From Thermostichus lividus PCC 6715 (GTDB lineage: Bacteria > Cyanobacteriota > Cyanobacteriia > Thermosynechococcales > Thermosynechococcaceae): a stretch of DNA of 64,000 nt. The notes under the pieces are model-generated. The model made no database searches and was not told the origin of the DNA. It was given only the letters and a program-made list of their open reading frames with translations. Where the stretch lies: NCBI RefSeq assembly GCF_002754935.1, contig NZ_CP018092.1, positions 930,001-994,000 of the forward strand. Reading direction: 5' to 3'. The position numbers and the translations under genes are program-made. How positions within the stretch are numbered: position 1 is the first letter of the stretch; each line of letters opens with the position of its first letter. Shown here one piece after another: positions 4,119 to 45,245 of this stretch.

Positions 4119-5096
4119 ATGACAAGCCTAACATTTATTGATCTTTTTGCTGGCATTGGTGGGATGCGTTTGGCATTTACTCAAGCAGGAGCAAGATGTG
4201 TTTTCAGTTCAGAGTGGAATAAGTTTGCCCAAATAACTTATGCAGCCAATTTTTCTGAAATGCCTGCTGGAGATATTACCCAAATTACCACTGATGAAAT
4301 TCCAGAGCATGATATTTTACTTGCAGGGTTCCCTTGCCAGCCATTTAGTATTGCTGGAGTCAGTAAGCATAATGCTTTGGGTGTAAAGCATGGTTTTGAT
4401 CACCCTACTCAAGGTAATTTATTTTTTGAGATAGTGAGAATTCTCGCAGACAAAAAACCGAAGGCTTTTTTATTAGAAAATGTTAAAAACTTACAGAGCC
4501 ATGATCAAGGTAGAACATTCAAGATTATTCAAAGAATTTTGAATGAATTAGGATATTACATTTACTATCAAGTAATTGATGCTGTTCATTTTGTCCCACA
4601 GCATCGTGAAAGAATTTTTATTGCTGGCTTTAAAGAACCCATTGAGTTTGCATTTCCAGATCTACCAATTCCTTATCTGAGAGTGAAAGACATTTTAGAA
4701 TTTGAAGTTGCACCAAAGTACACGCTAACAGATCATCTTTGGCAGTACCTACAAAAATATGCTGAAAAACATCGAGCAAAAGGTAATGGTTTTGGATATG
4801 GAATTGTGAATTTAGATGGTTTTACTCGAACATTAAGTGCAAGGTATTACAAAGATGGATCAGAGATTTTGATTCCTCAAGTCAATCAAAATCCTCGAAG
4901 GCTAACACCAAGAGAGTGTGCACGATTAATGGGTTTTCCAGATTCATTCAAAATAGTTGTCAGTGATACAAGAGCCTATCAGCAATTTGGTAATTCCGTT
5001 GTTGTTCCTTTAGTGAGAGCTATTGCCCATAAAATTCTAGAAGCCCTGAATCATAGAAATCCACTAAAAACAACTGAGCAGCTTAATCTTTTTTGA
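4119..5096 (+). CDS. C5-cytosine DNA methyltransferase of a type II R-M system
   Basis: Transfers a methyl group from S-adenosylmethionine to C5 of cytosine to protect host DNA from the adjacent endonuclease. All key motifs are in order: motif I FAGIGG (residues 10-15), catalytic motif IV FPCQPF with Cys73, ENV (120-122), QHRER (161-165), a short target-recognition region (about 175-265), and the closing QFGNSV motif. Length 325 residues is normal for a monospecific enzyme. The gene is strikingly AT-rich and lacks HIP1 octamers, unlike its neighbours, which points to horizontal transfer. The endonuclease gene starts 10 bases downstream on the same strand. Target sequence cannot be read from the sequence alone. 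Confidence 0.95.
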   Translation: MTSLTFIDLFAGIGGMRLAFTQAGARCVFSSEWNKFAQITYAANFSEMPAGDITQITTDEIPEHDILLAGFPCQPFSIAGVSKHNALGVKHGFDHPTQGNLFFEIVRILADKKPKAFLLENVKNLQSHDQGRTFKIIQRILNELGYYIYYQVIDAVHFVPQHRERIFIAGFKEPIEFAFPDLPIPYLRVKDILEFEVAPKYTLTDHLWQYLQKYAEKHRAKGNGFGYGIVNLDGFTRTLSARYYKDGSEILIPQVNQNPRRLTPRECARLMGFPDSFKIVVSDTRAYQQFGNSVVVPLVRAIAHKILEALNHRNPLKTTEQLNLF

Positions 5097-5106
5097 ACGT
5101 GATTCC

Positions 5107-5895
5107 ATGATTAATCTTAATAGTCGAGAACGTAAAGTATTAACTGAAATTTCATCTACTTATTACATGAAGCCCATTATAAAAAGAATAAATAGTCAGA
5201 TAAAAAGTAACTCAAATATAAAATTAAATTGGCTAAATGTTTTTGATTATCTTTATGAGATTCTAAAAGATTCAAGATCTGATGTCGAAAAATTGCTAGA
5301 TAACCGACTTGATAAAAACATAATCAAAAATAAAGATCAAGCCAGAAGAAGTATTGTTGGAAATGCGTTCTCTAAATCAATAATCTATATCTTTTTGATT
5401 AACAAGGTGCATGAAAATATACCCAATAAAATTTATATAACATCTCAAGTGTCTGTAATTCCTGACTTTGATAAATTAACTAGGATAAAAATTCAAGATG
5501 AGTTCCAAAAGCCAGATATGGATATTGTGATTTATTCAGAAGATAACTATCAAGACTACATTCTCATATCGCTTAAAACTTCTTTAAGAGAAAGAGCTGC
5601 TCAAACTTACAAATGGAAACTTCTAATCGATATTGCGTTATACAGTCCAGAGCTACGCGAAAGATACGGTATTTCATATTCGTCTTCAAAAGTACCCATT
5701 ATCTGTTTTGCTACAACTAATTTCTATAATGAAATCAATAATCCTCAACAGCGCGGCATATTAAAATTTTTTGATCGAGTTTTTATTGCTAGGCAAATAG
5801 ATCATGATAATCAATCATCAATATATCCTCTTTCAAATTTAGTGACATTTGCAATAGAAAATTTGATGAATTATTTACAACTTAGTTTATTTTGA
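5107..5895 (+). CDS. Type II restriction endonuclease, probable CCGG (BsaWI-like) family
   Basis: Predicted to cleave DNA protected by the upstream methyltransferase. The 262-residue protein carries a PD-(D/E)XK core: PD at 136-137, ISLK with Lys157, immediately followed by TSLRER (RER at 161-163). An R-(D/E)-R triplet after the catalytic lysine is the base-reading motif of enzymes that recognise CC:GG sequences, so a target containing CCGG is inferred; the overall pattern recalls BsaWI. The exact site is not known. The gene is AT-rich and HIP1-free like the methyltransferase and forms a two-gene operon with it. It has no frameshift and appears intact. Confidence 0.8.
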   Translation: MINLNSRERKVLTEISSTYYMKPIIKRINSQIKSNSNIKLNWLNVFDYLYEILKDSRSDVEKLLDNRLDKNIIKNKDQARRSIVGNAFSKSIIYIFLINKVHENIPNKIYITSQVSVIPDFDKLTRIKIQDEFQKPDMDIVIYSEDNYQDYILISLKTSLRERAAQTYKWKLLIDIALYSPELRERYGISYSSSKVPIICFATTNFYNEINNPQQRGILKFFDRVFIARQIDHDNQSSIYPLSNLVTFAIENLMNYLQLSLF

Positions 5896-44197: not shown

Positions 44198-44423
44198 GGC
44201 TCTATCGTTGCCGAGACCTGAGTGTGGGACTTTAGTATGGTAGCGGCTTGCGCCAGCAAAGCGTGCTTTCCAGCCTACCCTCCGTGCGACACTATTCAGT
44301 ACAGAAAATGTCACATCAAGTTTTAAATGAAAAATTAACAAAATAATATATTCAATATATTCCTAGTTGTTGTCGGTTGCCAACGATCTGCTATAGTCAT
44401 CCACAAACTCTGCTGTAAATAAT

Positions 44424-45245
44424 ATGCTTCAGAGAAAAACAGAACGCTCTGCACAGCTCCCCGTTCGTCAGCTCTGGTCGAAAATTTCCTCTAAGTGGCC
44501 GGATATCTTTGTTTTAAGTGGTTTGACGATCGCCACCATTGGCATTGGCTATGGTCATCCTAGAGTTATTGCTGGTGGTTTGTCGGTTACGGTTGGGGCA
44601 GCATGGGTCTCCATACAACGGCAGCAACAGGTTATTATGCGGGATGTGAATCTGCTGAAGCAATTACGACCCCAGATTGAAGAGAGTCAGCAAGTCAGTG
44701 AATTTAGGCAGGATATTTCAAATCATCTGCAAACAATACAACAAACTCAACAAGCTATTACACAAAAACTCTTCCCAGACCCTATTAGTAAAATTATAGA
44801 AATATGCCAACAATTTCATGATTTAGCTGGTCAGCAGTTAAACATCGAAAAAGTTACAGAAAAAGATGTACAAAATGCTCTAGAACAACTTCTCAGGCGG
44901 GAACTGCGAAGATATCAATCTGGCGAACCTGACATCAGGCGTGAGTACCCAGTTCCGCAGACTTATTCTCATGGTTGCTTTATTGATTTTTTATTGGTTG
45001 GTTGCGGGTGTGCTATTGAAGTCAAGCAGGTACGTGCGAAATCTCAAAAAGAAATTGTAAAAGATTTAGCCATCGATTTTGAAGTCTATCGAAACGCTAG
45101 TCACAGATTTCACACACTCATTTGCTTTATTTATGATCCAGAATGCAAGCTAATTAATCCTGCTGGCTTAATCAATGACCTCAGTGGCGATCGCGGCGGG
45201 TTTCAAGTCAGGACAGTCATATCCCCTTATGGCGCAACCAACTAA
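44424..45245 (+). CDS. Membrane-anchored DpnII/MboI-like nuclease candidate
   Basis: A 273-residue protein with two membrane helices close together (about residues 29-45 and 48-64), a Gln-rich coiled coil (about 65-115: QQQVIMRDV, QQTQQAITQ) and a C-terminal domain. In the last 100 residues FIDFLLVG followed by GCGCAIEVKQVRA gives a PD-(D/E)XK-type Asp...Glu-x-Lys pattern, then DLAIDFEVYRNA and LICFIYDPEC, as in REase_DpnII-MboI domains. The predicted layout is a nuclease tethered to a membrane. Composition is more AT-rich than neighbours but HIP1 is present. No partner gene is adjacent. Confidence 0.72.
   Translation: MLQRKTERSAQLPVRQLWSKISSKWPDIFVLSGLTIATIGIGYGHPRVIAGGLSVTVGAAWVSIQRQQQVIMRDVNLLKQLRPQIEESQQVSEFRQDISNHLQTIQQTQQAITQKLFPDPISKIIEICQQFHDLAGQQLNIEKVTEKDVQNALEQLLRRELRRYQSGEPDIRREYPVPQTYSHGCFIDFLLVGCGCAIEVKQVRAKSQKEIVKDLAIDFEVYRNASHRFHTLICFIYDPECKLINPAGLINDLSGDRGGFQVRTVISPYGATN

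Follow-up and report, generated by a model that had tools for sequence, protein, structure and literature searches.

A candidate membrane-anchored PD-(D/E)XK nuclease of Thermostichus lividus PCC 6715 as a probable stand-alone defence protein

We analyzed a 64,000-nucleotide stretch of the Thermostichus lividus PCC 6715 genome (contig NZ_CP018092.1, positions 930,001 to 994,000; hereafter the window) and identified a gene whose product carries a C-terminal nuclease domain and, at its N-terminus, a close pair of hydrophobic segments. Since the cutting domain is common to a proven bacterial immune nuclease, we think it somewhat probable that the protein is a two-helix membrane-anchored DNase that acts against viruses as a stand-alone, single-gene defence effector. 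This is a new domain arrangement made from a known effector domain. A defence role had already been proposed in a first-pass annotation of the DNA; it is supported by homology and gene context, which fall short of a direct demonstration, and its trigger is one that we infer. The open reading frame, coordinates and strand in that annotation were correct (Table 1), and the ATG start is supported because four homologues from the genus align from the same Met-Leu start.

Table 1. Position of the nuclease gene and its features in the window
Feature	Position	Strand	Basis or remark
Promoter-like site, extended -10 (TG)	44370..44397	+	Consensus match only; 26 nt 5' of the ATG
Gene for 273-aa predicted membrane-tethered nuclease	44424..45245	+	Including stop codon
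Hydrophobic helix 1, residues 28-44	44505..44555	+	Hydropathy mean 1.72 over 17 residues; helix in AlphaFold model
Hydrophobic helix 2, residues 48-64	44565..44615	+	Hydropathy mean 1.80 over 17 residues; helix in AlphaFold model
Gln-rich long helix, putative coiled coil, residues 65-116	44616..44771	+	Sequence; model helices 46-80 and 89-116
Nuclease module, residues 119-269, Pfam PF18742, PD-(D/E)XK fold	44778..45230	+	Profiles and model
E146 and Q150, first core helix	44859..44873	+	Invariant in 74 relatives
Predicted catalytic D188	44985..44987	+	71/74 relatives; corresponds to EcbAgaN D298 by spacing and profile alignment
Predicted catalytic E199-V-K201	45018..45026	+	E in 71/74, K in 74/74 relatives; corresponds to EcbAgaN E309/K311
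YDP 237-239, end of strand after core helix	45132..45140	+	73/74 relatives; one gapped

The nuclease assignment was obtained from profiles. Residues 138-268 matched PF18742 (REase_DpnII-MboI), the family proposed earlier as a check, with an E-value of 2.2e-21 and 76.4 bits against a curated cut-off of 27. The same C-terminal part matched the PADLOC model Aga_Helical-REase, a profile of Argonaute-associated nucleases, at E=1e-12. The AgaN-type PADLOC profile was matched by all 74 relatives, and the best profile of this type aligned only from its position 262 onward, indicating that the N-terminal domain of AgaN is missing here. A family profile search returned a single natural relative of solved structure, EcbAgaN (PDB 23wq, E=5e-11), which serves the long-B Argonaute (BPAN) system of E. 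coli as its DNase effector (PMC10620215). The DNase activity of EcbAgaN depends on Mn, and D298 and E309/K311 were found by mutation to be required for cleavage; acting with its Argonaute, the enzyme breaks down the genome and kills cells that carry a plasmid, for which the D-EVK motif is needed (PMC10620215). The two proteins share the C-terminal nuclease family, a D-x10-E-x-K pattern with identical spacing, and the placement of the nuclease behind another N-terminal part. However, EcbAgaN is 390 residues long, differs in its N-terminal domain and relies on its Argonaute for activation, whereas the window protein begins with the hydrophobic pair and a long helix, and its genome holds no Argonaute, as judged by the lack of any Piwi domain match.

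The IEVK core (E199, K201) and the YDP ending noted in the first-pass annotation are both present, with D188 eleven residues before E199. The annotation had called the domain DpnII/MboI-like, which was right for the Pfam family, but among characterised proteins the nearest relative is EcbAgaN, a DNase linked to an Argonaute. The Pfam name notwithstanding, no sequence-specific restriction enzyme is implied for the window protein; the cognate methyltransferase expected beside the nuclease gene of a type II restriction-modification system was not found at the locus. The nuclease domain is also common to other PF18742 proteins, including the PADLOC candidate PDC-S35, whose profile matched 16 of the 74 relatives but not the window protein. 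Searching the literature with the Pfam name or accession, or with terms for membrane-associated nucleases, found nothing.

An AlphaFold model built from 74 sequences (pTM 0.68) agreed with the profiles. Its helices and strands follow the order of a PD-(D/E)XK core, in which D188 immediately precedes one strand and E199-x-K201 lies in the strand after it, and pLDDT over residues 120-269 was mostly 87-96 except in the stretch 161-190; the core that the first-pass annotation had left to a structure model was therefore present. When the nuclease region was aligned with known structures, McrC, a CdiA toxin domain, Can2, BglII, Card1, BamHI and BstYI were matched at Z 7.9-8.9. The structural neighbours as a whole lay at Z 6.5-8.9, and several come from defence (McrC, Can2, Card1, Avs4, SduA and NucC). 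Taken alone these Z values are middling, but the listed matches to the nuclease region were overwhelmingly nucleases of the PD-(D/E)XK superfamily. Foldseek against the PDB gave no match below E 0.07.

From its family membership, the window protein is likely to have DNase activity. A catalytically dead or structural DNA-binding protein would be a very improbable reading. It could draw on a related Nitrospira branch (L088, L113, L125, L129, L131 and L136-L143) with long Pro-rich N-termini, whose inspected members have lost the catalytic Asp and Glu and kept the Lys; this is apparently a dead-nuclease lineage, and its losses indicate that the nuclease fold is sometimes kept without catalysis. 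However, D188, E199 and K201, together with E174, E146 and Q150, are present in the window protein and in all of its genus homologues.

The two N-terminal helices of the first-pass annotation were found to be short but hydrophobic segments, and they recurred in the other four intact homologues of the genus. Both were judged by hydropathy and by a low-confidence part of the model, the N-terminal hairpin having a pLDDT of only ~46-65. Hydropathy values for the pair in the five intact genus members ranged from 1.40 to 1.72, with the weaker ones in genomes G386 (1.42) and G389 (1.40). A close pair was found in essentially none of 91 distant homologues, one of them (L131) having it at the lower value of 1.31. 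When the same protein was shuffled, an equally strong and close pair arose in 59 of 5000 shuffles, so the pair alone is only moderate evidence. Positively charged residues precede the pair and also follow it directly, which suggests that both the N-terminus and the nuclease would lie in the cytoplasm. Weak Pfam matches of the long helix to CheZ, DUF4125 and Syntaxin were under the cut-off and were judged compositional, and the 14-3-3 and RZZ chains that the structure alignment paired with the N-terminal helices were disregarded as ordinary helical-bundle matches.

This layout resembles that of SNIPE (PD-lambda-1), a membrane-bound nuclease that cleaves phage DNA as this is being injected and that is toxic to the host when deprived of its anchor (PMC13190303). 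Both are single proteins with a hydrophobic part in the first 70 residues, which in the window protein is a putative anchor, then a helical linker and a C-terminal nuclease predicted to be cytoplasmic. However, the nuclease of SNIPE is of the GIY-YIG type and unrelated to the PD-(D/E)XK domain of the window protein, and the DUF4041 of SNIPE is absent from it; neither DUF4041 nor GIY-YIG gave a Pfam match at E up to 10. SNIPE has one hydrophobic segment and the window protein has two, and the phage data are for SNIPE. Since the nucleases are unrelated and DUF4041 is absent here, the likeness would be an analogy and not membership.

If the protein acts alone, membrane tethering would keep the DNase off the chromosome and quiet, a form of autoinhibition. 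A cue at the membrane, most likely phage or plasmid DNA on its way in or the machinery for its entry, would release the DNase, which would then cut DNA non-specifically. Entering DNA may be cleaved, as by SNIPE, or the infected cell may be killed by degradation of its chromosome, as with AgaN; both are possible. Speaking against the stand-alone reading, the locus lies among housekeeping genes, and neither a sensor domain nor a partner gene is visible for the nuclease in the window's genome. The main alternative, by analogy with AgaN, which waits for Argonaute, is that the protein would be an effector waiting for a separate signal. A bolder version of the stand-alone reading, which we hold only tentatively and consider rather doubtful, is that this is a second, independently evolved SNIPE-like immunity, in which a cyanobacterial membrane-anchored PD-(D/E)XK DNase would by itself meet and cut foreign DNA at the envelope, using an effector domain that elsewhere serves Argonautes. 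If the stand-alone reading is right, bacteria have reused one nuclease effector domain, some placing it behind an Argonaute and others behind a membrane anchor, and the tethering of a DNase to the membrane to spare host DNA arose more than once. Being a single gene, it could be transferred to a laboratory host for a direct test against phages and plasmids.

Alignment-based scans of genome and viral contigs identified ~90 relatives, spread over many bacterial and archaeal phyla, whose similarity is confined to the nuclease module. Single-sequence searches had not found such relatives: phmmer against the PDB gave nothing useful, the genome contigs yielded no relatives and the phage records no match. 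Seven of the distant homologues directly follow an Argonaute gene with overlaps of 13-55 nt, the Argonaute profile matches being 1e-93 or better, and one (L119) lies directly 3' of a Hachiman helicase gene. The homologues, whose neighbourhoods the first-pass annotation had marked for a survey, are therefore not uniformly placed in housekeeping operons. PADLOC matched 334 models per 132 proteins among genes no more than 2 positions away, against 113 per 116 among genes more than 4.5 kb away; this count is of matched models, not proteins, the control genes may share the same islands, and the measure is coarse because many models overlap. Two of the 74 relatives themselves matched SpbK in PADLOC.

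Distant relatives were also noted on enterobacterial plasmids, mostly conjugative by count (records H1-H31, e.g. NZ_LR881941.1:5327-5869, 28%). These matches are ~28-34% identical, the membrane part is missing, and they are annotated as hypothetical protein or as malate dehydrogenase, a name unfit for a nuclease domain. A cyanobacterial protein of 519 aa (L021:10696-12252, genome G151) combines the same type of nuclease domain with a single hydrophobic segment at its N-terminus and a predicted coiled region that is very long. We rejected it as a second membrane-anchored relative, since only one hydrophobic segment was above the threshold; its position beside the genus clade may be long-branch attraction, and it may be an extended form of this architecture.

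Within the phylum, the nuclease domain occurred in very few of 386 genomes. Relatives with the hydrophobic-pair front end were found only in the genus of the window, as five intact copies (the window's genome, G000, and G386, G389, G390 and G392), and relics of the nuclease were found in G388, G089, G179, G247 and G387. In a tree of the nuclease module the five genus proteins formed one clade (100/99). Within it the branching agrees with how the genus itself divides, which suggests vertical descent. In the main subclade, the nuclease gene lies between hli and galE-prfC together with a convergent gene for a Csm6-like protein, and this hli-nuclease-csm6-like-galE order is the ancestral site in that subclade. 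The Csm6-like protein gave a partial match to TIGR02672 at 1e-25, under the cut-off of that model, and its CARF and HEPN matches were weak. The nuclease of G392 lies beside a pyruvate formate-lyase gene. In the window's genome the gene stands alone, as the first-pass annotation said, between a divergent ggt and a co-directional sufC ~300 nt downstream, two genes that are not adjacent in the other genus genomes. In both of these genomes galE is without the nuclease/csm6-like pair. The earlier statement that the nuclease has no partner gene is accordingly true at the window locus, but the sister genomes carry it convergent with the Csm6-like gene.

This neighbour points to type III CRISPR signalling by cyclic oligoadenylate, and the nuclease could then be the effector of a two- or multi-part system with its sensor elsewhere in the genome, an explanation that we regard as unlikely. 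G386 and G389 have open reading frames for the nuclease and the Csm6-like protein alike. G390 has an open nuclease gene and a broken Csm6-like gene, and one or both of the pair are also broken in G388 and G089; relics of the Csm6-like gene were found in G388, G089, G179 and G391. Cas10/Cmr2 matches were obtained in G386, G389, G247 and G392 and were partial in G390, whose assembly is fragmented, and in G391, which gives a match in 4/5 genomes with an intact nuclease (G390 being partial) against 2/6 others, too few to count as an association. On the other hand, the window's genome keeps an intact nuclease with no match to a Csm6-like protein and none to Cas10 by the two models scanned (TIGR02578 and TIGR02577), and G392 likewise has the nuclease without a Csm6-like match. 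Can2 and Card1, the CRISPR ancillary nucleases, share the PD-(D/E)XK fold and are among the best structural matches of the window protein, but they carry a CARF sensor domain, and no CARF match was found in the window protein by Pfam, NCBIfam and PADLOC scans.

The Csm6-like loci (L019:8829-10118 and L017:6185-7528; relics L018, L160, L162, L163 and L172) lie far from any type III locus. The gene is intact in just two genomes, both with Cas10, and three genomes in which Cas10 was not detected (G388, G089 and G179) have it as a relic or in broken form, as though it decays after Cas10 has been lost. Outside the window, prfC of the window's genome (L169:7023; G000:C1 ~1469522) is in two frames, from either a frameshift or a sequencing error.

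The intact nuclease copies are under purifying selection as proteins, since dN/dS was 0.22-0.47 in the four homologue pairs without saturation. The nuclease diverges far faster than its neighbours, with an identity among genus homologues of 43-55% compared to 92-95% for SufC, and it is AT-rich, with a third-position GC of 0.36 compared to 0.54-0.56 in ggt and sufC. A patchy distribution, decay, rapid change and a composition of this kind are all typical of accessory defence genes, and none is specific to them. These data also bear on two further explanations. Membrane-located DNA metabolism or quality control, e.g. the processing of transformation DNA, would fit a DNase at the membrane, and housekeeping genes lie all around the nuclease gene. 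We consider this a little less likely still than a multi-part system: the gene is absent or broken in 6/11 genus genomes that otherwise share core genes, it diverges far faster than core proteins, and Argonaute and other defence genes lie next to its distant homologues. That the gene is a toxin or a selfish element, kept by mobility or addiction and not by host benefit, appears improbable. A chromosomal position that differs between G000, G392 and the main subclade, frequent decay and AT-richness, and the resemblance of its fold to CdiA toxin domains would be expected of such a gene, but neither a small antitoxin-like gene nor a flanking transposase was found at the locus, and the tree that follows the genus split suggests vertical descent. 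Transposon mobility was rejected as well; the surrounding repeats are short, and none is convincing as a terminal repeat.

The first-pass annotation had ranked this gene as the best candidate in the window for an undescribed defence or quality-control protein. The idea of defence is reasonable, but the window also contains a conventional defence system at 4119-5895 (+), where a C5-cytosine methyltransferase gene (PADLOC DrmMII/MTase_II, E=1e-150) is followed by a gene whose 262-aa product contains a BsaWI-type endonuclease domain (PF18643, 4e-13). This pair is an acquired type II restriction-modification system, and both genes are AT-rich, with GC of 0.36 and 0.28.
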